From an uncultured Naasia sp. (GTDB lineage Bacteria > Actinomycetota > Actinomycetes > Actinomycetales > Microbacteriaceae): a stretch of 64,000 bases of DNA. Position numbers and translations under genes: made by a program. Under the pieces are notes generated by a model. The model was given only the letters and a program-made list of their open reading frames with translations. It was not told where the DNA came from and did no database searches. The stretch is from NCBI GenBank assembly GCA_913778905.1, contig CAJYYA010000012.1, positions 226,233-290,232 of the forward strand, in the 5' to 3' direction. Positions 31,601 through 50,173 of this stretch are shown one piece after another. How positions within the stretch are numbered: position 1 is the first letter of the stretch; each line of letters begins with the position of its first letter.

Positions 31601-32437
31601 GTGGCGTGGAAGCGCCTGGAGCGCCTCACCCGATCCGCCGATGTGACGGTGCCCGAGCCCGCTGCGGCGAGCGACCGCGACGGCAACGCGCTCGACCCCG
31701 TCGCGAAGCCCGCGAAGAACGACGAAGCCGAGGAGTCGACGAAGGCGACGGGCGGGAAGGCTCCCGAGACGAGATCCTCCTCATCGAGGAAAGCGAAGCC
31801 CGCGGACAAGTGCGAGGTCCCCGGCAAGGCGAAGACCAAGACCAAAACCAAGACCAAGACCACGAAGCGCACGGACTCCGCCCTGGACGTACCCGCCGAA
31901 GAGGTCGACCGGCTCGTCGACGAAGGCATGCTGATCGTGCGGTCAGCGCTGCGGATGTCGGCCAAGAACCGGCTCATCATGCAGGTGCTCGGGGCCGGCG
32001 AGACGTTCGATGAGGACGCCCTCATCGAGGAGGTCCGGGCCGATGCGAGGTCGCTCGCCGAGGAGAAGAGCGACGAGGCCGAACGGCTCGAAGTCGTCGC
32101 GACCAAGGCCGCGAAGAAGCCGGGCCGGGCTACCTTCCACGACGACTATCGACGCCAAGACGTCCGAGCTCTCACGCTCCGCGAGCGGGTGGGCCGCGAG
32201 ACGGCCAGGCGCCTGTACGAGCTCGGCGACGACGACACGGCCCTGCGCGACCTCATCCATTCGGCGCGCGAATCCGCCCTCGACGATGTGATCCAGGCAC
32301 GGATCTCGGCGGTCATGCCCTACCGCCGCGATCCCGCCTACCGTCGAGAACGCAACGAGCGGATGCGCGCACTCGCCGACGACCTGGCCGTGCTGCGTCG
32401 TCGGCAGAAGGCGCGTCTCGGCGACCGCGTCTCCTGA
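31601..32437 (+). CDS. Unknown Lys/Ala-rich protein; its 3' end is the island repeat
   Basis: 278 residues. Residues ~20-90 are low complexity, including a (Lys-Thr)n run KAKTKTKTKTKTTKRT and Glu/Ala/Ser-rich stretches. From ~95 on it is helical and charged (DALIEEVRADARSLAEEKSDEAERLE, DDDTALRDLIHSARES), ending LRRRQKARLGDRVS. No family recognised. GTG 31601 has GGAGGAGG ahead. Its last 73 bases plus two more are repeated exactly at 39030-39104, so this gene end is the site of an apparent insertion. Before the insertion it would have been convergent with the CitE gene, three bases apart. Confidence 0.65.
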   Translation: MAWKRLERLTRSADVTVPEPAAASDRDGNALDPVAKPAKNDEAEESTKATGGKAPETRSSSSRKAKPADKCEVPGKAKTKTKTKTKTTKRTDSALDVPAEEVDRLVDEGMLIVRSALRMSAKNRLIMQVLGAGETFDEDALIEEVRADARSLAEEKSDEAERLEVVATKAAKKPGRATFHDDYRRQDVRALTLRERVGRETARRLYELGDDDTALRDLIHSARESALDDVIQARISAVMPYRRDPAYRRERNERMRALADDLAVLRRRQKARLGDRVS

Positions 32438-32439
32438 GC
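32365..32439. repeat. 75-bp direct repeat, left copy (att-like)
   Basis: Identical over 75 bases to 39030-39104, same orientation, period 6,665 bp. It covers the last 24 codons and stop of the gene at 31601 and two further bases. Confidence 0.95.
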
Positions 32440-32473
32440 GTCGTCCCGCCCGGTGACGCCCCGCTCGGCCTCG

Positions 32474-33496
32474 CTATCCGCGCGGAGCGGCGATCGAGCT
32501 GCGTTCGATGAGAGGCATCGGCACCAGGTGCTCACCGGGTGCGTCATCCCCGAGGAGCAGTTCGACCGCCCGCGCCCCCATCTGCTGGTGAGGCAGGGCG
32601 ACGGTCGTGAGCCCCGGGCGCAGATATGCCGCGACCTCGTCGTTGTCGAACGAGACCAGCGACACGTCATCCGGCACAGAGAGACCCCGCTCGGCGAGAG
32701 CGGCGTGAGCGCCGAACGCCAGACGGTCGTTCATGCAGACCACCGCCCGAACATCGGGCACACGATCGATCAGACGGTTCATGGCCTCGTACCCGAACTC
32801 GGGATCCCAGATCCATACGGACTCCTCGGCTTCGAAGGCGATGCCCGATCGGGCCATCTCGCGACGGATACCGGTGATACGCCGTCCCACGGTCACCGAC
32901 CGGAAGGCATCCTTCTCCAGCTCATCGCTCTGCCCGAGAAGGACGATCGATGAGCGATGACCGGCCGCACAGAGCCGGCGGATGGCGTCCGTCCCGCCCT
33001 GCAGCTCGTCCGGCAGGACCGAAGTCGTGTATCGGGGGTTGGTCGCGTTGAGGAGCACAGCCCGCGTTCCACTCGGGAGCTCAGGCACGAATAGTTCACG
33101 CGCTCGCATGGTGGCGAAGATGATCCCGTCGACCTGGCGGTCGACCAGCGCGTCGATCGCCGCCGCCTCGCGGCGGGGATCGCCGCCCGTCTCGGTGACG
33201 AGCACGACATGGTCGGCCTTCTCGGCGGCATCGAGCGCGCCCTTGATCAACCCGCTGGCGAATCGCGTCGTCGCGACTTGGTCCGAGACGAACCCGATGG
33301 TCTGCGTCTTCTCGGTGCGGAGACTCCGGGCCGCGAGGTTCGGCCGGTAGCCCAGTTCGGCTGCGGCGGTATTGACACGGTTGTGCGCCTCCTCCGAGAG
33401 GCGGGTGTCCGGGCGCCCATTGAGGATCATCGAGGCCGCCGCGGGCGACAGGCCCGCCCGTCGAGCGACGTCAGACAGCGTGACTCGTTTGGCCAT
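32474..33496 (-). CDS. LacI family transcriptional repressor
   Basis: 340 residues from ATG 33496 (GGAAGG ribosome site ahead); the longer ORF adds 51 non-coding residues. N-terminal LacI helix-turn-helix VTLSDVARRAGLSPAAASMILNGRPDTRLSEEA and hinge LGYRPNLAARSLRT, then a periplasmic-binding-protein-like sensor domain. Note Ala-Ala-Ala-Ser in the recognition helix where many LacI proteins have TVSR. It is divergent from the sugar importer genes with a palindrome at the intervening promoter, so it probably represses them. First gene inside the 75-bp repeats. Confidence 0.92.
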   Translation of the reverse strand: MAKRVTLSDVARRAGLSPAAASMILNGRPDTRLSEEAHNRVNTAAAELGYRPNLAARSLRTEKTQTIGFVSDQVATTRFASGLIKGALDAAEKADHVVLVTETGGDPRREAAAIDALVDRQVDGIIFATMRARELFVPELPSGTRAVLLNATNPRYTTSVLPDELQGGTDAIRRLCAAGHRSSIVLLGQSDELEKDAFRSVTVGRRITGIRREMARSGIAFEAEESVWIWDPEFGYEAMNRLIDRVPDVRAVVCMNDRLAFGAHAALAERGLSVPDDVSLVSFDNDEVAAYLRPGLTTVALPHQQMGARAVELLLGDDAPGEHLVPMPLIERSSIAAPRG

Positions 33497-33562
33497 GCGA
33501 TCACCTTCCTCACTCGTTGCCGAATCGTAGTGGTCGACATCCAGCCGACTCCCCGCAGGTGG

Positions 33563-33615
33563 TTGCGGATCAGTGCCGGTGTCTGCACAATAGCCCTGCT
33601 GAAACCATTTAGCAG
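33563..33615 (+). promoter_or_regulatory. Promoter and palindromic operator of the island sugar operon
   Basis: -35 TTGCGG (33563-33568), 17-bp spacer, -10 CACAAT (33586-33591). Just downstream at 33596-33615 is CTGCTGAAACCATTTAGCAG, an imperfect 20-bp dyad with the AAAxxxTTT centre seen in LacI-type sites. It covers the expected start point, as for a repressor. Confidence 0.6.
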
Positions 33616-33678
33616 AGTCGTCGGGAACAGTCTCGCCGTTCTCGATCATCGACGATCTTCGACAAAGGAGTCACAGCA

Positions 33679-35028
33679 ATGACACTGTTCCGCACACGCC
33701 GAGGGGGCACCGGCCTCGCGGTCGTCGCTCTCAGCGCTATCGCGGCGGCGGCCCTGACCGGCTGCGCCCCGGGATCATCGGGAACCGCCTCCACCACCTC
33801 GCAGGCCCCCGTCAGCACCGAGCTGACCACCGACGACGTGGTCCTCACGATCGCCGACGAGACCGGATTCCCCGTCACCGACAAGCTGACCGAGGAGTTC
33901 ACCAAGCAGCACCCGAACGTCACGTTCAACATCACGCGCGACACGTTCCAGAACCTCACCGCCAACGCACCCAAGCTGCTCGCGAGCGACACCCCGCCCG
34001 ACCTGATCCGCCTCCCCACCCTGGGCGACACCGTCAAGGACGGCCTCGTCGCCAACCTCGACCCGTATTTCGACGCCTACGGCTGGGACAAGTGGCCCGC
34101 CTCGCAGCTCGCCCCCCTCCGCATGACCGAGGACGGCACGCGCGGCAGCGGTTCGCTCTACCAGCTCGGCCTCGGCTACAGCGTCACGGGCATCTACATG
34201 AACACCAAGCTGGCATCGCAGCTCGGTATCACCGCACCGCCGCAGACCCTCGACGAGCTGGAGAAGGACCTGGCGATCGCCAAGGCGGGCGGCGTCCAGC
34301 CGATCATGTCCGGCGACAAGGACGGCGTCGTGAACTTCGTCGTGCAGGCCGCGATGAACCAGTACGCCGACAAGGACGAGTTCCTGTCGTGGATGTTCAA
34401 CGAGAAGGGCGCCACCTTCGACACCGAGGGCAACGTCAAGGGCGCCGAACTCATCCGCAAGTGGGCCGACGCCGGATACTTCCCGTCCGACATCAACGCC
34501 ATCGACTACTTCACGTTCAACAGCAACTTCACCGGCGGCCAGGGCCTCTTCGCCTGGAACGGCAACTGGGAGGCCGCCAACTACCAGAAGGCACTCGGGA
34601 GCGACGTCACCTACTTCCTCGCTCCCCCGGCCACCGCGGGCGGCAAGCACGTCGCCATGGGCGCTGCGAACTCCTTCTCGGTCGCCGCGAAGTCGAAGCA
34701 CCTCAACGAGATCGCCTACTTCCTCAACTGGGTCCACACCGACGAGAAGGCCCGCCAGATCATCGTCGACGTGACCGGCGCCTCACCCGGCGGCGACCCG
34801 AGCCTCGCGCTCCCCAGCGTGGAGAGCGGATCCCTGATCGGTCAGGCCCTCGAGATGTCGTCGCAGCTCGGCGCGGAGGACGGCCAGGTCGACTTCATGG
34901 CCAACACCACGGCCGGCATTTACGCGGGCTCGATCATCCCCGAGTCGCAGCTCCTCGTCACCAGCCAGATCACCGGCCAGGAGTTCGTCGAGCGCGTCCA
35001 GAAGTTCTACGAGGGCGAAGTCGGCTGA
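33679..35028 (+). CDS. Sugar ABC transporter substrate-binding lipoprotein (family 1)
   Basis: 449 residues. Lipoprotein signal with lipobox ALTGC (Cys at about 29), then family-1 solute-binding protein pattern (VTFNITRDTFQNL, PPDLIRLPTLGD, YQLGLGYSVTGIYMNTKLASQLG, FAWNGNWEAANYQ). Anchored to the outside of the membrane, it delivers an oligosaccharide to the two permeases that follow. AAAGGAG sits eight bases before the ATG. The cognate ATPase (MsiK type) is not encoded here, as usual in actinobacteria. Confidence 0.9.
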   Translation: MTLFRTRRGGTGLAVVALSAIAAAALTGCAPGSSGTASTTSQAPVSTELTTDDVVLTIADETGFPVTDKLTEEFTKQHPNVTFNITRDTFQNLTANAPKLLASDTPPDLIRLPTLGDTVKDGLVANLDPYFDAYGWDKWPASQLAPLRMTEDGTRGSGSLYQLGLGYSVTGIYMNTKLASQLGITAPPQTLDELEKDLAIAKAGGVQPIMSGDKDGVVNFVVQAAMNQYADKDEFLSWMFNEKGATFDTEGNVKGAELIRKWADAGYFPSDINAIDYFTFNSNFTGGQGLFAWNGNWEAANYQKALGSDVTYFLAPPATAGGKHVAMGAANSFSVAAKSKHLNEIAYFLNWVHTDEKARQIIVDVTGASPGGDPSLALPSVESGSLIGQALEMSSQLGAEDGQVDFMANTTAGIYAGSIIPESQLLVTSQITGQEFVERVQKFYEGEVG

Positions 35029-35094
35029 ACCATGCACCACGATGACGGAACACGGCTGCACACCGCAGCGCACTGAGAAGAGGACTGACGCCCC

Positions 35095-36015
35095 ATGAGC
35101 ACCCGTGCTCCGCTCATCACACGTCGGGTCGCCGTTTCGGCGGCGGCCCGACGGGCCACGATCGCTGCCTGGCTCCTGCTGACCCCCGCCCTGATCGCCT
35201 ACATCTCGTTCGTGATCTGGCCGCTGATCCTCGGCGTGCAGTATTCCTTCTACGACTGGAACGGCATCGGTCCGTCGACCTGGGTGGGGTTCGAGAACTA
35301 CCTCACCGTGGTCACGGATCCGACCCTGCTCGCCTCGATCGCGAACGCGTTCATCCTGGTCGCCTTCTTCACCGTCATCCCCGTCGGAGTCGGGCTCATG
35401 CTCGCCTCCCTCATCCGCACGATGAAGGCCGGCCCGTTCACGACCATCTCGCAGACCATCCTCTTCCTCCCCCAGATCATCCCGCTCGCCGCCGCGGGAA
35501 TCGCCTGGTCGTGGATGTACGCCCAGACAGGCGCGATCAACCAGTTCCTGTCCGCCATCGGCCTCGGGGGCATCACCCGCTCGTGGCTGGCCGGCTATGA
35601 CACCGCTCTCCCGGCGGTCGGTCTCATCGGTTCGTGGGTGCTCACCGGGCTCTGCACCGTTCTGCTGCTGACCGGCATCAGCAAGATCGACGGCTCGCTC
35701 TACGAGGCCATCCGCTTGGACGGCGCCGGGTGGTGGCGCGAGTTCTTCACCATCACCCTGCCCGGTCTCCGTCAGGAGATCGCGGTGCTCATCACCCTCA
35801 CCGTCATCGCCGCTCTCAGCAGCTTCGACATCATCTACACCTCGACGCAGGGTGGTCCGGGTCGCGCGACCCTCGTGCCCGGCATCTCGATCTTCCGGAT
35901 CGGCTTCACGCAGAGCGATGTGGGTCTCGCCTCCGCATTCGGAATCGTCCTGATGGTGCTCGTGCTCGCCGTCGTCCTCCCCATCCAGCGCCTCTCCAGG
36001 ACCAGCGACCGATGA
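35095..36015 (+). CDS. Sugar ABC transporter permease (MalF type)
   Basis: 306 residues with six helices and the EAA loop IDGSLYEAIRLDGAGWWREFFTITLPGLRQE, which contacts the ATPase. N-terminal basic segment, then WPLILGVQYSFYDWNG, typical of CUT1 MalF/UgpA-like permeases. Overlaps the next gene by ATGA at 36012-36015. Confidence 0.92.
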   Translation: MSTRAPLITRRVAVSAAARRATIAAWLLLTPALIAYISFVIWPLILGVQYSFYDWNGIGPSTWVGFENYLTVVTDPTLLASIANAFILVAFFTVIPVGVGLMLASLIRTMKAGPFTTISQTILFLPQIIPLAAAGIAWSWMYAQTGAINQFLSAIGLGGITRSWLAGYDTALPAVGLIGSWVLTGLCTVLLLTGISKIDGSLYEAIRLDGAGWWREFFTITLPGLRQEIAVLITLTVIAALSSFDIIYTSTQGGPGRATLVPGISIFRIGFTQSDVGLASAFGIVLMVLVLAVVLPIQRLSRTSDR

Positions 36016-36836
36016 TCAACAACAAATCCGAGGTCATCCTCGGCCGTCTCCTCCTCGTGATCGCGCTGGTGATCACCCTCGTGCCTCTCGCCAGCATGCT
36101 GTCCGCCGCGCTTCAGCCCGCCGACCAGAACCCGACCGGTTTCGTCTGGCCGAGCGATCCGCAATGGATCAATTTCGTCACGGCCTTCGAGGTGGGAAAC
36201 GTGTTCCGGCTCATGCAGTCGAGCGCTCTCATCGTGCTCGGGGTCGTGCCGATCAGCATCATCATCGCCACGATGGCCGGCTACGCCCTCGGCGGTCTGC
36301 GCATGAAGGGCGGGCGCTTCATCCTCATCTTCTTCGTGCTGGGCTTGACCATCCCATTCGAGGCGCTGATCATTCCGCTCTACTACCAGGCTCAGTCGAT
36401 GGGGACGCTCAACACCCAGCTCGCCATCGTCTTCCCTCTGATCGGTCTCTTCATGCCGTTCAGCGTGTTCTGGATGCGCGCGCACTTCGTCAACGTCCCG
36501 CCGGAACTCTCGGAAGCCGCCCGAGTCGACGGCGCGACGACCTGGCAGGAGTTCGTCCGGATCCAGCTGCCGCTCGCCGTGCCCGCCACGTCGGCGCTCG
36601 CGATCCTGTTGTTCCTGTGGACCTGGAATCAGTTCCTGCTGCCCGTCGTATTGGTGGCCGACCCCCTGAACCGCACGGTCGCGGGTGCGCTCACCTTCTT
36701 CCAGGGCCAGTACTCGCTGAGCATCCCGCTGCTGAACGCCGGCGCTCTGCTCATCATCACGCCCGCGATCATCGTCTTCCTCATCTTCCAACGCCAGTTC
36801 GTCCGAGCCCTCCTCCAGGGCGCGGTCAAAGGCTGA
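36012..36836 (+). CDS. Sugar ABC transporter permease (MalG type)
   Basis: 274 residues, six helices, EAA loop LSEAARVDGATTWQEFVRIQLPLAVPA and the MalG-type C-terminus (FLIFQRQFVRALLQGAVKG). Starts at the ATGA overlap; the ORF reaching back to 35634 is a frame extension inside the upstream permease. Forms the import channel with the MalF-type partner. Confidence 0.92.
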   Translation: MINNKSEVILGRLLLVIALVITLVPLASMLSAALQPADQNPTGFVWPSDPQWINFVTAFEVGNVFRLMQSSALIVLGVVPISIIIATMAGYALGGLRMKGGRFILIFFVLGLTIPFEALIIPLYYQAQSMGTLNTQLAIVFPLIGLFMPFSVFWMRAHFVNVPPELSEAARVDGATTWQEFVRIQLPLAVPATSALAILLFLWTWNQFLLPVVLVADPLNRTVAGALTFFQGQYSLSIPLLNAGALLIITPAIIVFLIFQRQFVRALLQGAVKG

Positions 36837-36858
36837 TCCCCTCTTCGGTCGAGACGTC

Positions 36859-37833
36859 ATGAGTTTCACGCTGCCGGACCACTGGGTCTGGGACTTCTGG
36901 TTCGCCGATGACGGCGAGACCTTCCACATGTATTACCTGCGAGCACCGAAGTCGCTCGGCGACGAACACCTCCGGCACCGGAACGCGCGCATCGGCCATG
37001 CGACTTCCCCCGATCTCGTCGACTGGACCGATCATGGAATCGTTCTCCAACCCGGGGGGACCGACGGCTTCGACGCCTCAGCCACCTGGACCGGCAGCGT
37101 CGTCAGGGACCCCGCGGGCGGGTGGCGCATGTTCTACACCGGTACCCGATTCGTGAACGAGACGGCCCATACCAACGTCGAGTCGGTGGGCGCGGCGCGA
37201 TCCGATGACCTGCACACGTGGACGAAGACCGGGTCGCCCGTCGCCGTCCTCGACGAGCGGATCTACGAGTCGCTCGCCGACGGCACCTGGCACGAGGAGG
37301 CCTGGCGAGACCCCTGGGTGTATCCGATCGACGGTGGGTGGCGGATGCTCATCACGGCCCGCGCTCGACAGGGCGACCGACCGGATCGCGACCGTGGGGT
37401 CGTCGCGGTCGCCGAGTCCGACGACCTCGACTCCTGGACGGTCCGGCCACCGCTCGACGGCCCGGGACTCGGCTTCGCCCATCTCGAAGTGCCCCAGCTG
37501 ATCACCATCGACAGCGCGCAGATGCTCCTCTTCTCCTGCGACTCCGCGCACCTCGCAGGATCGCGTGAAGAAGCGGGCGAGACGGGAGGGATCTGGAGTG
37601 CCGAACTCCTGAGCGATGGACGGGGAGCGACGCGCTTGTCGGAGCCGACCCTCCTGCTGGACGAGCGCCTGTACAGCGGCCGTGTCATTCGTGACCGAGC
37701 CGGAGAGTGGCAGCTCCTCGCATTCGTGAACCAGGACGCCGAAGGCAGATTCGCAGGCCGCATCACCGACCCGATGCCAGTGACCATGAACAACGGCACC
37801 CTCTCGGTGCTGGTGAAGGAGACCACCCCGTGA
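36859..37833 (+). CDS. GH32/GH68-like five-bladed propeller glycosidase
   Basis: 324 residues, no signal peptide, so cytoplasmic. Motifs in the order of clan-J enzymes: WDFWFADDGETFHMYYL (nucleophile-type Asp12), WRDPWVYPIDGGWRM (RDP block) and HLEVPQL (acid/base Glu in the EVP/ECP position). Likely cleaves the oligosaccharide brought in by the importer, for instance a fructoside; GH43-type activity is an alternative since the clans share these motifs. Overlaps the next gene by GTGA. Confidence 0.72.
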   Translation: MSFTLPDHWVWDFWFADDGETFHMYYLRAPKSLGDEHLRHRNARIGHATSPDLVDWTDHGIVLQPGGTDGFDASATWTGSVVRDPAGGWRMFYTGTRFVNETAHTNVESVGAARSDDLHTWTKTGSPVAVLDERIYESLADGTWHEEAWRDPWVYPIDGGWRMLITARARQGDRPDRDRGVVAVAESDDLDSWTVRPPLDGPGLGFAHLEVPQLITIDSAQMLLFSCDSAHLAGSREEAGETGGIWSAELLSDGRGATRLSEPTLLLDERLYSGRVIRDRAGEWQLLAFVNQDAEGRFAGRITDPMPVTMNNGTLSVLVKETTP

Positions 37834-39008
37834 CCGTCCCCGCTCCCACACTCGATCTGGTCGCCCCCGGTTACGAGCCGGTCGCCGACGCGTTCGCCAG
37901 AGCCTTCGAAGAATTCCCGCAGATGGGCGGTGCGCTGTCGGTGCTCGTCGACGGAACTCCGGTCGTGGAGGGCTGGGGTGGCCTCGCCGACACGAGGGAC
38001 GGGTCGCCCTGGCGACAGGACACTGCCACGGTGGTGTTCTCCTGCACCAAGGGGATCATGTCGATCCTCGCCGCGAAGCTGGTCGAAGACGGGTGCCTCC
38101 GCTACGACGCTCCGGTCGCCACCTACTGGCCGGAGTTCGCGGCCGAGGGCAAAGAAGCGATCACGGTTCGCGAGATCCTCTCGCACCGGTCGGGTTTGTC
38201 AGCCCCCCGTCGGCCGTTCACCACCGCCCAGATGCTCGCCTGGGACCCGATCGTCGAGGGGCTCGCCGCGCAGGAGCCTCTGTGGGAGCCGGACAGCGCC
38301 TACGCCTACCACGCGATCACCCACGGCTGGCTGATCGGCGAGGTGATGCGCCGTGTGACCGGGAAGATGCCCGGCGAGCTGCTTCGAGAGACGATCGCCG
38401 AGCCCCTCGCCGCCGATCTGTGGCTTGGTCTCGATCCCGCACTGGAGCCGCGTGTCGCGCATCTCACCGTCGGCTCGACGCTGGCCGACCTCGTCGCCGT
38501 TCAGGATGCGGAGGCGGCGGCAGCAGGAGGCATCGACTGGCCAGGGCAGGCCATGACACTCGGCGGAGCGCTACCCCGGGCCCTGGTCACGCCCGACGGC
38601 GGCTTCAATGCGCCGGCCGCACATGAGGCGCAGATCCCCGGAGCCGGCGGGATCGCCACCGCTCGCGGGCTCGCGACGGCCTGGTCGGCCACCGTCACCA
38701 CGACCGCGGGAGTACGCCTGGTCGGCGACGACGTGCTCGACGAGGCAGCCGCCGTGCAGACCGAGGGGGCTCCGTTCTACCCCGCACCCGCGCCCTGGCC
38801 CAGGTGGGGAATGGGCTTCCAGCTCGACTCGCAGGCACGGCACTACCTCGGAGCCGGCAGCATCGGTCACGACGGGGCGGGCGGACAGGTCGCATTCGGT
38901 GATCGCGAGCACGGTGTGGGCTTCGCTTTCGTCACCAATCAGATGGAGGCGATCGACCCTCGAGCCACCCGGATCGTGGACGCTCTCGGAACGGTCCTGC
39001 GCGGCTAA
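37830..39008 (+). CDS. Class C beta-lactamase-like serine hydrolase (EstB type)
   Basis: 392 residues starting at GTG 37830. SxxK motif SCTK (Ser71, Lys74), second motif YAYH (Tyr in place of YxN) and HDGAGG in the KTG position. This is the EstB/COG1680 group: esterases more often than lactamases. No signal peptide, so cytoplasmic. In an operon with sugar genes it may remove an ester (for example acetyl) from the imported sugar; that is inference. Last gene before the right-hand 75-bp repeat. Confidence 0.8.
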   Translation: MTVPAPTLDLVAPGYEPVADAFARAFEEFPQMGGALSVLVDGTPVVEGWGGLADTRDGSPWRQDTATVVFSCTKGIMSILAAKLVEDGCLRYDAPVATYWPEFAAEGKEAITVREILSHRSGLSAPRRPFTTAQMLAWDPIVEGLAAQEPLWEPDSAYAYHAITHGWLIGEVMRRVTGKMPGELLRETIAEPLAADLWLGLDPALEPRVAHLTVGSTLADLVAVQDAEAAAAGGIDWPGQAMTLGGALPRALVTPDGGFNAPAAHEAQIPGAGGIATARGLATAWSATVTTTAGVRLVGDDVLDEAAAVQTEGAPFYPAPAPWPRWGMGFQLDSQARHYLGAGSIGHDGAGGQVAFGDREHGVGFAFVTNQMEAIDPRATRIVDALGTVLRG

Positions 39009-39029
39009 TCGGACGCCTCCGCGGTTTTC

Positions 39030-39104
39030 GCGCGCACTCGCCGACGACCTGGCCGTGCTGCGTCGTCGGCAGAAGGCGCGTCTCGGCGACCGCGTCTCCT
39101 GAGC
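39030..39104. repeat. 75-bp direct repeat, right copy (att-like)
   Basis: Exact copy of 32365-32439. Here it codes for nothing complete: only the last residues of the duplicated gene end, followed at once by the convergent CitE gene (stop at 39106). The 39009-39029 stretch between the hydrolase stop and this repeat has no feature. Confidence 0.95.
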
Positions 39105-39105
39105 A

Positions 39106-39972
39106 CTACGGACGGTCAGCCGCCCCAGCAGCCAAAGTGCGCTCGGCAGCCCTCACCATGGCGATGTCGACGAAGGTCCCGTCTGCCAGCACGAACGCCC
39201 CGGTCCCGTCACGGGCGGCGTCTCGAATCCGCTCCACGATGAGCCGAGCCCGGGCCAGTTCGTCCTCTCCGGGTGTGAACGCCCGACGGATGACCTCGAT
39301 CTGCCGCGGGTGGATCGCAGTGCGCCCCGCATACCCGAGGGCGCGCCCGTCCCGGCAACTCCGATCGAGCCCGGTGAGGTCGGCGACGTCGGCCCACACG
39401 GCCATGAGCGGCTGCGGCAGTCCCGCGGCGGCCGCGGCGTTCACCAGTCGGGACCTCGACCAGGCGAGCCCCGGCTCCCCCGCGGGCCCGGCAGGCACTC
39501 CGAGTTCCGCGCGGAGATCGGCCTCGCCGGACGCGACCGACGCGACGCCTGCGCTCGCGATATCGAACGCGCGCTCGATCGCGAGCGCCGACTCGAGCAG
39601 GGCATGCACGTCGCGCCCCGGGGCCGCTGCACGGACGGAGGCCACGTCGTCGGCCGACTGCGTCTTGGGCAGGCGGATCCCGAACGCGGCGGGAAGCTCG
39701 GCGACCGCGGCGAGATCGGCCTCGTGCTCGGCGGAACCGCGGGCGTTGACCCGCACCTGCACGGCCGGCGCCGATCCGGTCGCCCCCGCGTCGCGCTCAC
39801 CCCACGCGGCGGCGAACTCGGCGAGCGCCGCGCGCCCGTCCGCCTTGCGCGACGACGTCACGGCGTCTTCGAGGTCGACGATGACCGCGTCGGCGCCCGC
39901 GTCCAGCGCCTTGGCGAAGCGGTCGGGGCGGTCGGCGGGCGCGTAGAGGGCGACGACGATCGGGCGGGTCAC
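39106..39972 (-). CDS. CitE-type HpcH/HpaI aldolase, CoA ester lyase
   Basis: 288 residues from GTG 39972 (overlaps the CaiB gene by GTGA). DAVIVDLEDAVTSSRK, ALLESALAIERAFDIAS, SGEADLRAELG, and GYAGRTAIHPRQIEVI are the blocks of CitE-like malyl-/citramalyl-CoA lyases, including the metal Glu and Asp ligands. A CoA-transferase directly upstream supports a pathway in which an acid is activated to its CoA ester and then cleaved. Substrate not determinable. Confidence 0.85.
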   Translation of the reverse strand: MTRPIVVALYAPADRPDRFAKALDAGADAVIVDLEDAVTSSRKADGRAALAEFAAAWGERDAGATGSAPAVQVRVNARGSAEHEADLAAVAELPAAFGIRLPKTQSADDVASVRAAAPGRDVHALLESALAIERAFDIASAGVASVASGEADLRAELGVPAGPAGEPGLAWSRSRLVNAAAAAGLPQPLMAVWADVADLTGLDRSCRDGRALGYAGRTAIHPRQIEVIRRAFTPGEDELARARLIVERIRDAARDGTGAFVLADGTFVDIAMVRAAERTLAAGAADRP

Positions 39973-41156
39973 GCGATCGATCCTTCCGAACGCATCCGGG
40001 CGAGATCCGCTTCCGTGAAGCCGAGCTCGGCGAGAACCTCGTCGGTGTCCGCACCGTGACCGCGGCCGGTGAAGCGGATCGTCGCCTCGTCGTCCGACAG
40101 GCGGAACAGCGGGCCCTGCATCGCCATGTCGCCGAGGTCCTCGTCGTGGATCCGGTGGATCGTGCCGAGAGCCTGGAACTGCGGATCCGCGACGATGTCG
40201 GCAGGATCGTAGACGGGCGCGACCGCCGCCTGCGCGGCTTCGAAGGCCTCGATCACCTCGGCACGGGAGTGCCGGGCGATCCAGGAGCCGACGGCGTCGT
40301 CGAGTTCGTCGGCGTGCTCGGCGCGCGTGGCGCCGGAGGAGAACCACGGCTCGTCGGCCAGCTCCGGGCGCCCCACGAGGGCGACGACCCGCTCGGCGAT
40401 GGACTGAGCGCTCGTCGAGACGGCGACCCAGGATCCGTCGGCGGTGCGATACGTGTTGCGGGGCGCGTTGTTGGCCGAGCGGTTGCCGGTGCGCGGCTGA
40501 ACCGTGCCGAGCTGGTCCCAGCGGGTGATCTGCGGCCCGAGCATGGCGAGGATGGGCTCGATGATGGCGACGTCGACGACCTGACCGGCTCCCGTGCGCT
40601 CACGGCTCTGCAGCGCGGTCATGATCGCGAAGGCGGTCGCCAGAGAGGCGATGCCGTCGGCGAGGCCGAAGGGCGGCAGGGTCGGCGGCCCATCGGGCTC
40701 CCCCGTCGCCGCCGCAAACCCGCTCATCGCCTCCGCGAGCGTGCCGAAACCGGGGCGGCTGCGATACGGACCGATCTGGCCGAACCCGGTGACCCTCGCG
40801 AGGACGAGACGAGGATTCGCGGCGGACAGCACGTCGTAACCGAGGCCCCACCGCTCGAGCGTGCCGGGGCGGAAGTTCTCGATCACGACATCGGCCGAGC
40901 GGGCGAGTCGGAGGAACGCCTCGCGCCCGTCCTCGGTGTGCAGGTCGATCGCGACGGTGCGCTTGTTGCGCCCGAGCGTCTTCCACCACAGGTTGTGGCC
41001 GTTCTTGCTCGGCCCGTGCCCGCGAGCGGGGTCGGGTTTGGTCGGGTGCTCGACCTTGATGACGTCGGCGCCCATGTCGCCGAGGTGCATGGCGGCCATC
41101 GGGCCGGCGAACAGGGTCGACGCATCGACGACCGTCAGTCCTTCGAGGGCGCTCAT
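39969..41156 (-). CDS. CaiB/BaiF (class III) CoA-transferase
   Basis: 395 residues, ATG 41156. FAGPMAAMHLGDMGADVIKVEHP, NKRTVAIDLHTEDGR, ENFRPGTLERWGLGYD and GAGQVVDVAIIEP are the family motifs. Moves CoA between an acyl-CoA and a free acid; with the downstream CitE lyase it may form a two-step degradation of a hydroxy-dicarboxylic acid. Overlaps both neighbours by 4 bases. Confidence 0.9.
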   Translation of the reverse strand: MSALEGLTVVDASTLFAGPMAAMHLGDMGADVIKVEHPTKPDPARGHGPSKNGHNLWWKTLGRNKRTVAIDLHTEDGREAFLRLARSADVVIENFRPGTLERWGLGYDVLSAANPRLVLARVTGFGQIGPYRSRPGFGTLAEAMSGFAAATGEPDGPPTLPPFGLADGIASLATAFAIMTALQSRERTGAGQVVDVAIIEPILAMLGPQITRWDQLGTVQPRTGNRSANNAPRNTYRTADGSWVAVSTSAQSIAERVVALVGRPELADEPWFSSGATRAEHADELDDAVGSWIARHSRAEVIEAFEAAQAAVAPVYDPADIVADPQFQALGTIHRIHDEDLGDMAMQGPLFRLSDDEATIRFTGRGHGADTDEVLAELGFTEADLARMRSEGSIA

Positions 41157-43099
41157 CCCTCCCCCTCCCAGCAGATGCGGAAGCCGATCGACGGCGACGC
41201 GTCCTGGCCGAGACCCGGCAGCAGCAGTTTGGCGGCGAACTCGGGCCTGCGGACGCCGCCGTCGAAGTACCAGTCGGATCCTTCGCTCAGGTGCGCACTG
41301 CCGCCCTTGAGCATGACGAAGCGGGTGCGGCCGTCGGAGTGCTCGGACTCGGTCCAGTTCCACACCTCGGGTTTCCGGCGGGTGAATGCCGGGTCAGCCG
41401 CGGCGAGCTGCCATTCGTCCTCCGTGGGCAGACGGCCCCCGGCCCACGCTGCGTACTCGCGAGCTCGGGCGAAGGTCATACCCGTCGCGGGACGGTCCGG
41501 ATCCCGGGAGTCGGTGCTCTCCCCAAGGGCATCGAGGAAGCGGGCGTACTCGGCCTCGGTCACCTCAGCCGCGGCGACGCGCACCGGCGCGGCGAGGTCG
41601 GCCACCCGTTCGAGCGTGCGCTGGTCGTGGAGGCGCGGGGGCAGCGGCTTCCACTCGTCGACGTAGGGCGCTCCGTCGTACATGCCGGTCTCGCGCATGC
41701 GATACCGGACGGTGAGCACGTGCTCCCCGGCGGGAACGACGACGGTCGGCTCGGGCGCCGCCCCATCGCCCGGGCGCTCGCGCCGCGGGCCCGCCCACGC
41801 CGGGGCGGTCAGGCGCCGGGGGCGGCGATGCGGGAAGGACGCGTCGCGCACGGGCGGTTCCGCCGCGAGCGCCTGGCGAACCTCGTCCAGGACGGCCGGG
41901 CGTGAGACGCCGGTCGCGAGGCGGACGACCGCCGCGACGCCGCCCGCCGGAACCGCGACCGCACGTACGGTCTCGGCGGAGTCGTGAAGCGGCACGTGGT
42001 CGCCGTCGAAGCGGACCTCCGCGGCAGCGTCCGACACGTTCGCGAGCAGCACCAGTTCCACGCCGTCGAGCAGGAAGGACGAGCCGAAGACCGGAGCCGA
42101 GTGGATCGTCAACGGCGTCCACTCCCCCTCGACCAGCCAGCGATGGAAGCCGCGCTGGACGGGCAGCATCCGCCGGAGGGTCGCCGCGTCGCGGTCGTTC
42201 CAGCCGACCCACGCACCGAACACGACCTCCCACACCATGACCCCGACGCCGTTGAGCCAGGCGGAGCGCAGCTCCTCGGCATGGTCGCGATGCCAGCGGC
42301 GGATGTGGTGCTGCATGTGACGGCGCTCGAACCAGCGGGCGCGCAGCACGCCGGGTACGTCGGAGTCGGCGAACCATTGCGCCCACGACAGCGTGTGGTC
42401 GGCGATGCGCTCGGTGGCGAGCTTCGACTCGCCCTCGAGGCCGATGCCGGGACGGGCAGCGTCGAGGGCGGCGACGAGCTCGGGATCCGCCTTCCTCAGG
42501 GTGTCGAGGAACACCCCGTCGGCGCCCAATCGGCGAACGGTGACGGCCAGCTCCTCGGCGTCCTCCCCGCCGCGGCGGGTGCCGGTGTCCCAGGGGTTGT
42601 AGTCGACGAACACGGCGACACCCTCCGCGTGCAATGCCGCGGCGGCCTCCTCGAGACCGGGGACGCGATAGAAGTCCCACTGGTTGCGGTCGTCGATGCC
42701 TATGACGGGGTAGGCGTGCCAGAGCACGACCCCGTCGATGCCGCCGAAGCGCTCACGCGCATCGGCGAGGAAGCGCTCCGGCGTGAAGCGCTGGGCCTCG
42801 AAGTCGAAGAACAGCTCGTCCCAGAGCCACACCTGGGCCACGGTGAAGCAGCGGCTGGCCCAGGCCGAGGCGGGGTCGTCGTAGCGGTCTGGCGTACCCA
42901 AGCGCGCGCGGGCCCCGTCGCGCCAGGCCATCAGCTGACTCCGCCACGCAGGAAGATCGGCGGGGTCGGTCGGCGGGATGAAGATCTTCGCGTCGTCCAG
43001 CGATTCGGCGGCGGTTCCGACGGTGACGTCGGCGTCGAGCGGGACCGGCGTGGGTCGATCGATCTCGCGCGGCACCAGCGGGTCGAAGCCTCCGCTCAC
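41153..43099 (-). CDS. TIM-barrel glycosidase-like / formylglycine-enzyme-fold fusion protein
   Basis: 648 residues from GTG 43099 (GTGA overlap with the ADP-ribosylglycohydrolase gene); the ORF up to 43861 is an artefact. Residues ~65-330 look like a TIM-barrel glycosidase (WLWDELFFDFEAQRF, GIDGVVLWHAYPVIG, VDYNPWDTGT, DGVFLDTLRK, GLEGESK). Asp in FLDTL and Glu in LEGE are candidate catalytic acids. The C-terminal ~150 residues are an FGE-sulfatase/SUMF1 fold (VTEAEYARFLDALG, AREYAAWAGGRLPTEDEWQLAA, VMLKGGS, SIGFRICWE). The two Cys of active formylglycine-generating enzymes are absent, so this half is probably non-catalytic or binds sugar. No signal peptide. Confidence 0.68.
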   Translation of the reverse strand: MSGGFDPLVPREIDRPTPVPLDADVTVGTAAESLDDAKIFIPPTDPADLPAWRSQLMAWRDGARARLGTPDRYDDPASAWASRCFTVAQVWLWDELFFDFEAQRFTPERFLADARERFGGIDGVVLWHAYPVIGIDDRNQWDFYRVPGLEEAAAALHAEGVAVFVDYNPWDTGTRRGGEDAEELAVTVRRLGADGVFLDTLRKADPELVAALDAARPGIGLEGESKLATERIADHTLSWAQWFADSDVPGVLRARWFERRHMQHHIRRWHRDHAEELRSAWLNGVGVMVWEVVFGAWVGWNDRDAATLRRMLPVQRGFHRWLVEGEWTPLTIHSAPVFGSSFLLDGVELVLLANVSDAAAEVRFDGDHVPLHDSAETVRAVAVPAGGVAAVVRLATGVSRPAVLDEVRQALAAEPPVRDASFPHRRPRRLTAPAWAGPRRERPGDGAAPEPTVVVPAGEHVLTVRYRMRETGMYDGAPYVDEWKPLPPRLHDQRTLERVADLAAPVRVAAAEVTEAEYARFLDALGESTDSRDPDRPATGMTFARAREYAAWAGGRLPTEDEWQLAAADPAFTRRKPEVWNWTESEHSDGRTRFVMLKGGSAHLSEGSDWYFDGGVRRPEFAAKLLLPGLGQDASPSIGFRICWEGEG

Positions 43100-44487
43100 G
43101 ACCGACCCTCCCGCTGCGCTGCTCCACCGAGGCGCTCCGCGAGAGCGGCGGTGCGCTCGGCCAGCTCCCGGATCGACCGGGTCGGACCGCCGGGCATCGA
43201 GGTGGCGATCCGGTCCTGCAGCGGCGCGATCCAGGCATCGTCGAGCCGCGCCGAGCCGAGCAGTCCGCCGACCACGGAACCGACGGTGGCCCCGGCGGAA
43301 TCGGTGTCCCAGCCGCCCGCCACCGCGAGCGCGACGGCCGAGGTGAAATCGTCGCCGTAGGCCTCGACGGCGCAGGCGATGAGCGCGGCGTTGTTCAACG
43401 TGTGCACCCAATGCAGGTGTCCGAGCGCGTCGTGCATTGCGTCGAGCGCGACTTCGGTCGTGGTCGTGCCCGCGGCGAGGGATCGACCGGTTTCGCGGCC
43501 GACGCGGATCGCGTCCGCGAGGCGCGACTCCGGCGGCACGACGGCGTCGGCCGCGTCGAGGGCCACCGGGCCCGACTCGACGACCAGAGAGGCGGCGCAG
43601 AGGGCCCCGGCCCACATCTCGCCGTAGACGCCGTTGCGGGTGTGGCTGAGGCGGGCGTCGACCCACGCCGAGCGGGCGGCGGCACGCACGTCCCCGGGGT
43701 GCACCCAGCCGTGCACATCGGCGCGGATGAGGGCGCCGATCCACTCCCGGAACGGGTTGAGGTGCCTCGCCGTCTCGGGTACGGGACGGGCGTCGAGGAT
43801 GTTTCGATACGCGGCGCGCTCGGCCGTGAAGACCCGCCCCGCCGGCAGAGCCGCGAGCCACGCCTCCGCGACGTCGTCACTCGTGAGGTCGTCCCCGTGG
43901 CGCTCGAGCAGATCGAGGGCGAGGATCGGGAAGTTGAGGTCGTCGTCCTCGGGCATACCGGCGATGTTCTCGACGAGCGAGGTCGGCGCCGAGCGACGGT
44001 TCCACGGCCAGCGGGTCGCGATCTCGGCCGGGAGCCCGATCGCGGTGAAGTAGGAGCGGATCGGCCAGTTGCCGGTCGCGCGTGCGATCTCCTCGATCCC
44101 GGCACGCGGGATCTTCTCGACCGGCTTGCCGAGAAGGCAGCCCGCGGATCGACCGAGCCAGGCGCCGTGGATCCGATCGACGTCCACGCTGCGCGGGAGC
44201 GCGGGAGCCGACGGGAGGGTGGCGACGATCGCCTCCCACTCGTCCGGCTCGGTCGCGCTCGGTTCCTGCAGCGTCTGCAGCTCGCCGAGCACGCCGCGTG
44301 CGACAGCGCGCAACTCGGGCGACGCAGGCGTGGCGCTCGCACCCGACGGCGCGAGGAGCGTCGCGCCGCCCGCGTCTGCCCAGCGTCGCTCGATCTCCGC
44401 GATCCCCGCCTCGTCGGCACCCTGCTCGCGCAGGGCCGCGATCTCAGCGGGGACGAGGTCTTCCGGCTGAGCCCAGGTGAGTCTCAC
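43096..44487 (-). CDS. ADP-ribosylglycohydrolase family protein (long form)
   Basis: 463 residues from GTG 44487. N-terminal ~85-residue extension, then the family core: AWLGRSAGCLLGKPVE, MPEDDDLNFPILAL and GGWDTDSAGATVGSVVG, the last holding Mg ligands of the ADP-ribosylglycohydrolase (DraG-like) fold. DDD replaces the DDT usual at the second site, as in a subgroup found with sugar transporters. Likely hydrolyses a nucleoside-, sugar- or ADP-ribose N-glycoside. Co-transcribed with a second family member. Confidence 0.82.
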   Translation of the reverse strand: MRLTWAQPEDLVPAEIAALREQGADEAGIAEIERRWADAGGATLLAPSGASATPASPELRAVARGVLGELQTLQEPSATEPDEWEAIVATLPSAPALPRSVDVDRIHGAWLGRSAGCLLGKPVEKIPRAGIEEIARATGNWPIRSYFTAIGLPAEIATRWPWNRRSAPTSLVENIAGMPEDDDLNFPILALDLLERHGDDLTSDDVAEAWLAALPAGRVFTAERAAYRNILDARPVPETARHLNPFREWIGALIRADVHGWVHPGDVRAAARSAWVDARLSHTRNGVYGEMWAGALCAASLVVESGPVALDAADAVVPPESRLADAIRVGRETGRSLAAGTTTTEVALDAMHDALGHLHWVHTLNNAALIACAVEAYGDDFTSAVALAVAGGWDTDSAGATVGSVVGGLLGSARLDDAWIAPLQDRIATSMPGGPTRSIRELAERTAALAERLGGAAQREGRS

Positions 44488-45653
44488 GCCGTGGCCCCGA
44501 CGGCCAGCACGGCGTCGAGAGCGTCGAGACGCGCACGCGCCGCCTCCGCGTCGGCGCGCCCGATCTCGCGCACCACCGCGACCATCTCGTCGACGACCCC
44601 CTCGAGGTTCAGCCGGCTCGCGCGCGTGACCTCGTCGATCCACTCCGCGGGCACCGCGGCGGTGCCACCGAGACCGCCGCAGATCGCGCCCGCCATCGTG
44701 GCGATGGAGTCGGCGTCACGGCCGTAGTTGACGGCGTCGACGACGGCGGCGCGGAGGTCGCCGTCGTGGGCCACGACCAGACCGAGCGCGACCGGCAGCT
44801 CCTCGATCGACTTGGTGCGAGAGGGGAGGCGGGCGTCCATCGCGGGCTTGCGGTACTCATCGCCGACGGTGTCGAATGGCGCCACAGCGGCGCGGAGGAC
44901 GCGATTCAGCACGCGCGGGTCGTCCGCTCCCCCGCGGGCTCGGAAGGCGTCGACCGCATCGAAGACCGCGGTTATGGCGGCGGCCGTGCCGTCGTGGGCG
45001 AGGTCGAGCACCGCGGCGCGGACATCGGCCACGCTCGCGCCGGGAGCCGATGCGGCAGCGACCGCGGCGGCGAACACGCCGGCCGCCTCGCGACCGTAGG
45101 ACGACTGGTGCGCTCCTGCGAGATCGATGGCCTCGGCGTAGGCGCCGCGGGGATCGCCGATGTTGACCAGGCCCACCGGGGCCATGTACATGGTCGCGCC
45201 GCAGTTGACGACGTTGCCGACGCCGGCCTCGCGGGGATCGGCATGCCCGTAGTGCAGCTTCATGACGAGCCACTTCTCCGCGAGGAACACCCGCTGGAGG
45301 ATCAGGGCCTCGTCCTCCAGCTCCGGGATCCATCGACGCTCGCCGATCATGATGGGCACGAGATCGCTCGCCACGTCGTAGGCGTCGAGGTGACGCCGCC
45401 TGGCCGAGTAGACCTCGATGAGCGCGTGGGTCATCAGAGTGTCGTCCGTGACGTGTCCGTCGCCCTTGTGGTACGGCGCGATGGGCCGGGCGGTCCGCCA
45501 GTCGGCGAGGAACGGGCCGACGATCCCCTGCACCCTGCCGCCGTGGCGCTCCTCGATCTGCTCGGGCGTCCAGCCCTCGGTCGCGCCTCCCAGCGCGTCA
45601 CCGACCGCCGCTCCCGCCAGCACCGCCGCCACCCGATCGTGCAGCACGTCCAT
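44484..45653 (-). CDS. ADP-ribosylglycohydrolase family protein (short form)
   Basis: 389 residues. AGAAVGDALGGATEGW, HVTDDTLMTHAL and YGRDADSIATMAGAICGGLGG are the metal-binding motifs of the family, all intact. ATG 45653 chosen because GAGGGA is six bases ahead; GTG 45665 is a less likely alternative. Paralogue of the next gene, with which it shares a 4-base overlap. Function: hydrolysis of an N- or O-glycosidic ADP-ribose or sugar bond, by family. Confidence 0.85.
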   Translation of the reverse strand: MDVLHDRVAAVLAGAAVGDALGGATEGWTPEQIEERHGGRVQGIVGPFLADWRTARPIAPYHKGDGHVTDDTLMTHALIEVYSARRRHLDAYDVASDLVPIMIGERRWIPELEDEALILQRVFLAEKWLVMKLHYGHADPREAGVGNVVNCGATMYMAPVGLVNIGDPRGAYAEAIDLAGAHQSSYGREAAGVFAAAVAAASAPGASVADVRAAVLDLAHDGTAAAITAVFDAVDAFRARGGADDPRVLNRVLRAAVAPFDTVGDEYRKPAMDARLPSRTKSIEELPVALGLVVAHDGDLRAAVVDAVNYGRDADSIATMAGAICGGLGGTAAVPAEWIDEVTRASRLNLEGVVDEMVAVVREIGRADAEAARARLDALDAVLAVGATA

Positions 45654-45675
45654 GTGTTCCCTCACTTCGCATCCT

Positions 45676-45704
45676 GCGGGGCGGACGGGCTACGCCCGCC
45701 CCGC
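45676..45704 (-). promoter_or_regulatory. Intra-operon hairpin
   Basis: GCGGGGCGG (45676-45684) pairs with CCGCCCCGC (45696-45704), 11-base loop, in the 76-base gap between the binding-protein stop and the next start. It is the only long gap in the downstream half of the operon and could reduce transcription of the enzyme genes relative to the binding protein. Confidence 0.5.
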
Positions 45705-45729
45705 GTCGTCATTCGGATCTCCGGCCGGC

Positions 45730-47022
45730 TCAGCCGTTGACGTCGGCCCAGCCGTCGGTCAGCTGCGTCGCGAGCTGGTCCTTCGAGATCTGGTCCGCCA
45801 GGTACTGCTGCAGGGCCGGGGTCGCGACGGTGTCCTTCCACTCCTGGTACTTCGAGACCTTGAGGAACGGCGGGCCCTCGAGACCTTCACCGGATGCGAG
45901 CACCTGCTTCCAGGCCTGATCATCGCCGGCGAGCTTCTCGACCGCGGCGCGGGCCTCACCCGACGACGGGATGAGAGCGTCGGCGTAGGCGATCTTCGCG
46001 AGGTTGTCGCCGCTCATGAAGAAGTTCAGGAAGTCGGCCGACTCCTGCACGTGAGGCGAGTCGACGTTGATCGAGTAGGTCTGCGGATTGGCAGCCTGGA
46101 CCGCTCCGGCCGTGCCGGCGATGGGAGGCAACGCGACCCAGTTCAGGCCCTCGGGGGCGTCCTTGGCCATGTTCGTGGCCTGGAACGAGCCCTGCACGGT
46201 CATGGCGACCTTGCCGCCGTAGAACGATGCGAGCACGTCCGACCCCGACTGCGTCAGCGACGTCGGATCGATCGACTTGTCGGCGTAAGCCATGTCGTGG
46301 ATGCGCCCGGGCACGGCGAGCTCGCCGTCGCCCACGTCGATCGACGCGTCGGCGCCACCGCCCTCGAAGAACCCGCCGTCGAAGCCGAGCGCCATGCTCA
46401 TGACGGTCGCGGTGGGCGACTTGAGGCCCCAGCCGACGCCATAGTGCTCGGGCGTCGTCGTCGCCTTCGCGATCTCCTCGAACTGATCCCACGTCATCGA
46501 GTCGCCCGAGGGCACCTCGACGCCCGCCTGGGCGAGCAGGTCGGCGTTCGCGAACACCATGTACGACTGCAGCGTCGACGGGTAGGCGATGATCTTGCCG
46601 TCCTGCGTGACCGAGTCCCAGATGCCCTGCGAGATGTCGCTCTTGAGGTCGGGCGCGACGAGGTCGTTCAGGTCGGCGAGGTAGCCGTCCTGCGCGAACG
46701 ACACGATCGAGCTGGCCTCGAAGTGGATGATGTCGGGCGCGGTGCCACCGGTGAACTGGGTGATCAGCTTGTCGTAGGCGCCGTCCCAGCCGCCCTGGAC
46801 GATCGAGACCTGGACGTCGGGGTTGTCCGTGTTCCATTGGTCGACGATCTCCTTGACCGCCGCCTGCGTGGTGGGCTGGTCCGAGAGCGATTGGAACTCG
46901 AGGGTGATGGGGCCGTCGCCCTCGCCTCCGCCGCCGCTGGCGCTGCCCTGCTGGCAGCCCGCGAGGGCGAGAGCGGCGACGCCCGCGAGAGCGATGGCGC
47001 CGATGCCACGGAATCTCTTCAT
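45730..47022 (-). CDS. Sugar ABC transporter substrate-binding lipoprotein
   Basis: 430 residues. Lipoprotein signal with lipobox LALAGC (Cys at about 23), then a Gly/Ser linker and the family-1 binding pattern (ITLEFQSLSDQPTT, GGTAPDIIHFEASS, SKYQEWKDTVATPALQQYL). Caught substrate is likely a mono- or oligosaccharide. Start ATG 47022 with GGAAAGG ahead; the ORF to 47463 is false. Delivers to the two upstream permeases of the same operon. Confidence 0.88.
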   Translation of the reverse strand: MKRFRGIGAIALAGVAALALAGCQQGSASGGGGEGDGPITLEFQSLSDQPTTQAAVKEIVDQWNTDNPDVQVSIVQGGWDGAYDKLITQFTGGTAPDIIHFEASSIVSFAQDGYLADLNDLVAPDLKSDISQGIWDSVTQDGKIIAYPSTLQSYMVFANADLLAQAGVEVPSGDSMTWDQFEEIAKATTTPEHYGVGWGLKSPTATVMSMALGFDGGFFEGGGADASIDVGDGELAVPGRIHDMAYADKSIDPTSLTQSGSDVLASFYGGKVAMTVQGSFQATNMAKDAPEGLNWVALPPIAGTAGAVQAANPQTYSINVDSPHVQESADFLNFFMSGDNLAKIAYADALIPSSGEARAAVEKLAGDDQAWKQVLASGEGLEGPPFLKVSKYQEWKDTVATPALQQYLADQISKDQLATQLTDGWADVNG

Positions 47023-47090
47023 GTTGAGGCCTTTCCTTCTGCTGTGATGAACGGTCTGTGGTGGGTGGGTGTGCGGGTCGTGGGGAGGGC

Positions 47091-47930
47091 TCAGCCCTTG
47101 ACGGCGCCGGCGAGCATGCCGCCGGTGAGCTTCTTCTGGAGGATCCCGAAGATGACGAGCGACGGGATGGTGGCGAGGATCGCGCCGGCCGCGAGCGGAC
47201 CGAGCTGCGTCTGCCCCTCGGCGCCGAGGAACGAGCGCAGCGCGATCGGCAAGGTGTAGAGCTCGGGGCTCTGCAGCAGCACGAGCGCGAGGAAGAACTC
47301 GTTCCACGCCGAGACGAACGTGAACATGGCCGTCGCGACGAGGCCGGGCGCGAGCAGCGGGAGGATCACGGTCCGGAGAATCGTGAAGCGCCCCGCCCCG
47401 TCCATCTCGGCGGCCTCCTCGAGCTCCGGCGGGATCGCGGCGACGTAGCCCTGGAGCATCCACAGCGTGAACGGCATCGTGAAGGTGACGTAGACGAGGA
47501 TCAGGCCGAACAGGGTGTCATTCAGCTGCAGGCTCCGGAGCACCAGGAACAGCGGGATGATGATGAGGATCGTCGGGAACACCTGGCTGATCAGGATCCA
47601 GACCGTGCCCGCGGCCCGGAGGCGCCCCTTCAGGCGGGCGAGCGCGTACGCCATGGGCATGGAGAGCAGCACCGCGACGATCATCGTGACGATCGCGACG
47701 AGCATCGAGTTGCCGAACGCGGTCACGAGGTTCTGCCGATCGAGCGCATTCGCGTAATTGCTGAAGTCCCACTCGATCGGGATCAGGTTGACGCTGAGGG
47801 AGTTGAGCTCCCGCGACGACTTGAACGACGCCGAGAGCAGCCACAGCAGCGGGAATCCGAGGAAGACGAGGTAGGCGGCGAGCACCGCGTACATCAGGAC
47901 CGTGGCGTACCGGGGGCGACGGGCGATCAT
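47091..47930 (-). CDS. Sugar ABC transporter permease (MalG type)
   Basis: 279 residues from ATG 47930 (ATGA overlap with the next permease). Six helices, the EAA loop LEEAAEMDGAGRFTILRTVILPLLAPG and the typical C-terminus (FGILQKKLTGGMLAGAVKG). The ORF to 48479 is a false extension. Confidence 0.92.
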   Translation of the reverse strand: MIARRPRYATVLMYAVLAAYLVFLGFPLLWLLSASFKSSRELNSLSVNLIPIEWDFSNYANALDRQNLVTAFGNSMLVAIVTMIVAVLLSMPMAYALARLKGRLRAAGTVWILISQVFPTILIIIPLFLVLRSLQLNDTLFGLILVYVTFTMPFTLWMLQGYVAAIPPELEEAAEMDGAGRFTILRTVILPLLAPGLVATAMFTFVSAWNEFFLALVLLQSPELYTLPIALRSFLGAEGQTQLGPLAAGAILATIPSLVIFGILQKKLTGGMLAGAVKG

Positions 47931-49932: not shown

Positions 49933-49953
49933 GGGCTCTCCTTCGAGCGAGAC

Positions 49954-49992
49954 TGCAAACGTTTACAGCAAGTGCTGATGTAAACGTTTGCA
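49954..49992. promoter_or_regulatory. Paired LacI-type operators
   Basis: TGCAAACGTTTACA (49954-49967) and TGTAAACGTTTGCA (49979-49992) are exact reverse complements of each other and each is a near-palindrome of the LacI/CRE type TGNAANCGNTTNCA. Their centres are 25 bases apart, about 2.4 helical turns. They lie 22 bases before the lacI start and about 180 bases before the GH43 start. Confidence 0.85.
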
Positions 49993-50173
49993 CTCATGGC
50001 GTCGAGAGTCAAGCGATCCGCGACACCTCCCAGATCCACCTCGACCCACCGCACGCGCCGATCGGTTCGAACGCCCAGTCCGCACACGAGGGGTGCACAA
50101 CGCCGCATCGATGAGCTAACCTCCGGTGTTACCGGGAACATCCCGGCCGGTGTGCACTCGAGGAAGAGGATCC

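Follow-up and report, generated by a model that had tools for sequence, protein, structure and literature searches.

Horizontally spreading catabolic operons form a category in which a LacI-type repressor, an ABC importer and a glycosidase are combined. A second group of systems consists of elements that integrate at the 3' ends of genes. Passages of PMC5704250 document the 3' ends of protein-coding genes as a target of tyrosine recombinases, with one of the two repeats restoring the gene, and name guaA, rpsI, trmE, yicC and others as targets of 3'-end islands and IMEs. The same passages document CIMEs, which lack integration and transfer genes and keep both repeats, and integrase-less relics of gene-3'-end insertion are known from there and from Islander (PMC4383910).

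In this report, a stretch of 64,000 nucleotides from an uncultured Naasia sp. (GenBank assembly GCA_913778905.1, contig CAJYYA010000012.1, positions 226,233 to 290,232; the window) is discussed. We focus on a six-gene sugar-uptake unit that lies between two exact 75-bp direct repeats at the 3' end of a coding gene. The repeats probably mark the place of a single insertion and do not prove that a novel type of mobile element exists.

The 75-bp direct repeat

The left copy of the repeat (32365-32439, forward strand) consists of the last 73 bases of a gene that will be called the target gene, TG (31601-32437, forward strand), including its stop codon, plus 2 bases, and the repeat ends 2 bases past the TG stop. 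The right copy (39030-39104, forward strand) is a TG tail without the gene and sits between the stop of a serine-hydrolase gene (39008) and the stop of a CitE-like gene (39106). The first-pass annotation of this DNA had described the repeats as perfect, and they are: 75 of 75 positions agree, the period is 6,665 bp and both ends are maximal, as the flanking bases differ. A search of the whole genome (3.22 Mb, 23 contigs) found the sequence at these two places and at no third. When flanks of different modules were mismatched (2 kb each side, 300 trials) the longest common stretch was 18 bp, and a chance origin of the 75-bp repeat is therefore excluded. Nor does it resemble a REP or other palindromic intergenic family, since it has two copies in the genome and derives from coding sequence. 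Within the 75 bp lies a perfect inverted repeat (32375-32405; 9-bp arms GCCGACGAC and GTCGTCGGC, 13-bp spacer) that the right copy also has. Arms of at least 9 bp occur in 18 of 2000 random coding pieces of 75 bp, and of 50 gene ends tested in the window, that of TG and one other have an inverted repeat as long; the feature was spotted after the fact and is suggestive only.

Exact direct repeats of at least 28 bp were also surveyed in 450 kb of the same genome. The others were multi-copy families, close-spaced or low-complexity runs, a tRNA-Leu repeat and one intergenic 41-bp pair. The tRNA-Leu repeat is an 86-bp exact direct repeat in the window (10987-11072 and 11148-11233, with 75 bp between the copies) that starts in the last 20 bases of the tRNA gene (10924-11006) and includes a terminator-like palindrome; this second gene-3'-end duplication in the window may be what is left of an island that was deleted. 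A REP-like family, TCATTTCGCTTCGCTCAATGGGCGG, occurs at window positions 9254, 9334, 10856 and 62645 (inverted), with several more members on the rest of contig C12. The 41-bp pair (C10:61564 and C10:96459) is intergenic, has complementary ends and is spaced 34.9 kb apart; it was considered as an island boundary and rejected, as it encloses genes that read as housekeeping.

Genes between the repeats

Six genes fill the interval, a LacI gene and, divergent from it, five genes that share one direction. The LacI-family repressor (32474-33496, reverse strand, 340 aa) has a start chosen by codon score, and a longer start at 33649 is possible. On the forward strand follow a carbohydrate ABC solute-binding protein (SBP; 33679-35028, Pfam SBP_bac_1), ABC permease 1 (35095-36015) and ABC permease 2 (36012-36836; both Pfam BPD_transp_1), a GH32-like glycosidase (36859-37833, Pfam Glyco_hydro_32N) and a serine hydrolase of the beta-lactamase/esterase family (37830-39008, PF00144). 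A candidate LacI-type operator, TGCTGAAACCATTTAGCA (33597-33614), lies between the divergent genes, and the pattern TGCT-N9..12-AGCA is present in the LacI/SBP gap of 33 of 56 copies of the unit. Gene calls beyond the supplied ORF lists were made with a simple codon-score script. These calls and the Pfam matches agree with the earlier description of one repressor and a five-gene importer/hydrolase operon between the copies, and also with its statement that no integrase, recombinase or transposase is inside: no recombinase, transposase, integrase remnant or ATPase was called in the 6.59-kb interval.

Judging from the protein families, LacI would repress from the candidate operator, and an oligosaccharide would be taken up by the SBP and the two permeases together with an ATPase whose gene lies elsewhere. 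Once inside, it would be cleaved by the GH32-like enzyme and deacylated by the serine hydrolase. The GC content of the module is 66.8%, compared with 70.0% and 71.2% in the flanks. The other ABC genes in the window also have 67-68% GC, and the low value is therefore partly an effect of gene type.

The target gene and the genes to its right

TG encodes a protein of 278 aa without a Pfam or NCBIfam match, which belongs to a variable family whose tail is not conserved. Matches to it were found in 230 of 299 family genomes, the best outside its own genome at ~42% identity, and the 3' tails of the tested homologs (identity at most 43%) do not align. Forty-four loci were given to a test of these tails, of which 32 yielded a tail, and five genes had been read twice; in none of the 27 distinct homologs was the tail repeated beyond 16 bp in the stretches examined (3.5-20 kb). 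The gene-end repeat is not visibly a property of TG. Congener homologs are mostly 33-42% identical and lie at other locations; in three of the seven congeners having one, it is beside, or one gene from, a 5'-3' exonuclease gene. The window counterpart of that exonuclease gene is at 53077, and the place of TG in the window may therefore itself be derived. In one congener (G001, L014/L015) the TG homolog is read in two pieces, with a TGA codon in frame.

To the right of the module lie a gene for a CitE-like C-C lyase (HpcH_HpaI; 39106-39972, reverse strand), convergent with TG, and a gene for a family III CoA-transferase (39969-41156, reverse strand) that overlaps it by 4 bases. Removal of one period would leave TG intact with its stop 3 bases from the convergent CitE-like stop, as had been proposed. 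The best congener match of the CitE-like protein is 48%, and the best among 60 relatives (64%) is in another family of the order. From 39106 to 50000 the window contains the CitE-like and CoA-transferase genes, genes for an FGE-domain protein and two ADP-ribosylglycohydrolases, and a second LacI/ABC system. This segment, of which the first gene was compared with relatives, may also be strain-specific.

Search for an empty site

Alignment with related genomes had been suggested as a way to find an empty site, with TG next to the CitE-like gene and a single 75-bp copy, but no such site was found among the relatives examined, in which the congener homologs of TG are placed elsewhere. TG was sought in 9 genomes of the genus and 299 of the family, the CitE-like protein in 60 relatives and the Nit neighbour in 9 genomes, and 13 stretches were inspected. 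Adjacency of TG with CitE or with Nit was not seen outside the window in these stretches, 29 other CitE-like loci had no TG within 1.5 kb on either side, and an initial contig scan with TG as the query found no relative.

The same outcome was obtained for other cassettes ending in the 75 bp, a search also suggested earlier: no near-identical copy was found in 397 other family genomes, which include no close relative of this TG, so that a sister element may have escaped. With two candidates scored per genome, 91 of these genomes gave weak matches, at best with an E of 3e-6; the longest covers 74 bases at 72% identity inside an unrelated gene. Twelve distinct places were examined (13 loci, L203 and L241 being the same); all are inside other called genes, and no TG or module protein is near them in the stretch examined. 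At one of them (L207) the match is near the 3' end of the host gene (83% over 47 bp) and the gene has no similarity to TG. Three within-genus DNA matches to the 75 bp were rejected as unrelated sequence by their ORFs.

The unit in other genomes

Fifty-six distinct copies of the unit, including that of the window, were collected from Actinomycetota. The sample consisted of 20 loci from GH32-like matches, 58 found by SBP alignment and the window; one row without the module SBP (L135), 8 incomplete or cut rows, 13 duplicates and 1 mispaired row were left out. All six genes are present in 53 of the 56 copies, which measure 6.5-6.8 kb from the LacI stop to the last stop, and the three units without a GH32 match measure 5.3-5.7 kb. 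By nearest neighbours the copies fall into up to 40 gene-neighbourhood groups, an upper bound as missing or short gene calls split groups. The content of the unit is stable and its neighbourhood is not. In two copies (L141 and L142) the GH32 gene and the serine-hydrolase gene have exchanged places, and the gene adjoining the unit in L141 (8965-9783) is IS3-type transposase-like by its first residues.

The GH32-like protein has matches (E up to 1e-30) in 71 of the 398 genomes of the family. Inside the genus, which as delimited here includes Amnibacterium flavum, they are limited to the window genome, G002 and G005. The G005 gene is in a different operon without the SBP, and the modules of G002 (L134) and A. 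flavum M8JJ-5 (L185) are identical in sequence. Three Streptomyces megaplasmids carry relatives spanning the unit (79% aligned, ~70% DNA identity), and the SBP had no match at 1e-20 among phage records.

In the SBP tree the window protein belongs to a 25-row clade (support 100/98) with rows from Microbacterium, Homoserinibacter, Arthrobacter and Streptomyces, its closest row being Microbacterium sp. B19 (86% identity over 405 columns). The A. flavum copy groups with rows from Agreia and Subtercola in a separate clade (100/100). Because the SBPs of these two congeners fall in different clades, we infer that the unit was horizontally acquired by the window genome.

Flanking repeats were sought around 54 units, the window and 53 others, with 2000 mismatched flank pairs as the control (control maximum 27). 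With 300-bp flanks the window scored 75, L153 scored 42, L152 scored 15 (equalled by 16 of the controls) and the rest at most 12. For exact matches in 2-kb flanks, with L194 set aside, the values were 75 for the window, 27 for L153 and at most 17 for the others, against a control maximum of 18. L153 (Microbacterium sp. T32) has a long palindrome on both sides of the unit, 27 bp exact and ~65 bp similar, with one copy 13 bases and the other 8 bases beyond the terminal genes. A non-palindromic flanking repeat above the control was found in none of the 53 other copies with 300-bp flanks, and a long gene-end repeat is not visibly a property of the unit. An apparent 879-bp repeat at L194 (Pseudolysinimonas kribbensis) was a module-pairing error and the row was dropped; its module genes were not pairable by the script, probably because the stretch has more than one related operon. 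In L132 (Homoserinibacter) a palindromic 74-bp repeat is present at 6366 and 8012, with one copy near a unit end.

Origin of the repeats

The best reading is that an acquired unit was inserted at the 3' end of a gene with TG restored, in a CIME-like manner. Insertion of some kind is probable in our judgement, which was not computed. Insertion of the att type is the single most likely mode, though it is put forward tentatively; it is favoured by the anatomy, in which the gene is completed by one repeat and the displaced tail lies at the far end. The unit would have come horizontally and inserted once, as a single 6.59-kb piece, at the TG 3' end. Recombination would have occurred within a 75-bp block of identity at the TG end, with the gene restored on the left and the old tail displaced to the right, and the integrase would have been lost or never carried, as in a CIME. 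The repeats would accordingly represent putative att sites.

The window genome has three matches each to PF00589 (tyrosine recombinases) and PF00239, all outside the interval. Two of the PF00589 proteins resemble XerC and XerD in their size and their gene neighbours. The third lies among phage-like genes on another contig, and no 12-bp piece of the 75-bp repeat is present in the 20-kb stretch around it. TG makes a poor attB, given tested homologs that share at most 43% identity and tails that do not align, and since it is variable, an incoming element matching its tail exactly should stem from the same lineage. The first-pass annotation had seen in this locus an integrase-less, possibly trans-mobilised cassette with the gene end as a new type of attachment site. 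An acquired metabolic unit tightly bounded by repeats, an intact TG and the lack of a recombinase gene stand from that interpretation. The new type of site is not supported, as there is a single occurrence, the tails of TG homologs are unrepeated and the 53 other copies have no such repeat. For trans-mobilisation the evidence points in neither direction.

It is possible, if somewhat unlikely, that the repeats were made by repair of a break. Break ends ~75 bases apart at the TG tail would have been filled in and closed around a captured module, duplicating the host 75 bp, by end joining or replication-coupled template switching, and only insertions restoring TG would survive in the 3-base convergent gap. 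Host DNA would then itself supply two identical copies, even of a gene as lineage-specific as TG. The genome has a Ku gene, and the site was not seen to recur in relatives, TG homologs or other copies of the unit. Long flanking duplications by break-repair capture are known from plants; the bacterial literature consulted deals with insertion sequences, and no capture of this kind in bacteria was seen described in it. The locus also has no positive signature such as filler bases, and it would be a coincidence that the captured piece extends just 34 bases past one terminal stop codon and 21 past the other; break repair does not account for so exact a match to the unit.

The order of events could also be reversed, although this is improbable. 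The module would have been there first with ordinary tight gaps, and a copy of the 75-bp TG tail would later have entered the gap that separates CitE from the last module gene, by templated insertion or ectopic conversion. The gaps without the second repeat (36 and 22 bases) are inside the range of the unit elsewhere, and there is no empty site to demonstrate that CitE once directly adjoined TG. Such a history needs a second event besides the acquisition, namely the transfer of 75 bp across 6.6 kb, a rare occurrence, with an end point 2 bases past the TG stop.

Very little probability is given to a unit that moves as a precise cassette by a trans-acting enzyme using gene-3'-end identity, with the window as a fresh insertion whose repeats are undecayed. 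It fits the orientation of the neighbours: in 19 of 38 groups (two of the 40 lacked a neighbour call) the unit has a closest gene pointing towards it on either side, compared with convergence in 78 of 557 adjacent pairs outside units. Selection against breaking promoters or operons would yield the same excess and explains it without any enzyme. An assembly artefact is scarcely credible even for a draft genome of 23 contigs, as both copies have unique flanks within a 317-kb contig and sequencing reads are usually longer than 75 bp.

Comparison with known systems

Under the att-type reading the locus is closest to a CIME: genes for integration or transfer are absent, those called inside being for LacI, the importer and the hydrolases, and its cargo lies between direct repeats of which one completes the target gene. 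It differs from a CIME in that no related ICE or IME and no integrase remnant was seen, and the site was seen once. With the 3'-end islands and IMEs it shares insertion at the 3' end of a coding gene that is restored. The known ones carry a tyrosine integrase, whereas the interval has no tyrosine or serine recombinase of its own, and many of the targets listed in the passages of PMC5704250 are housekeeping genes, unlike the variable TG. Occupation of the same site in relatives, as in an IME, ICE or classical island, was not seen among the 27 distinct TG homologs. A composite transposon does not describe the locus either, since no transposase gene was called between the repeats and the duplication is 75 bp and not short.

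The cargo resembles the spreading catabolic operons in being a compact unit with its own repressor, in varied neighbourhoods and with relatives on Streptomyces megaplasmids. It differs in that, among the copies tested, only the window has a long coding-derived insertion footprint. The window locus is best regarded as a portable catabolic operon of a known kind that, most likely, is framed by a clean scar of its insertion, and it offers a widely scattered operon of this kind met with its apparent arrival scar still exact.
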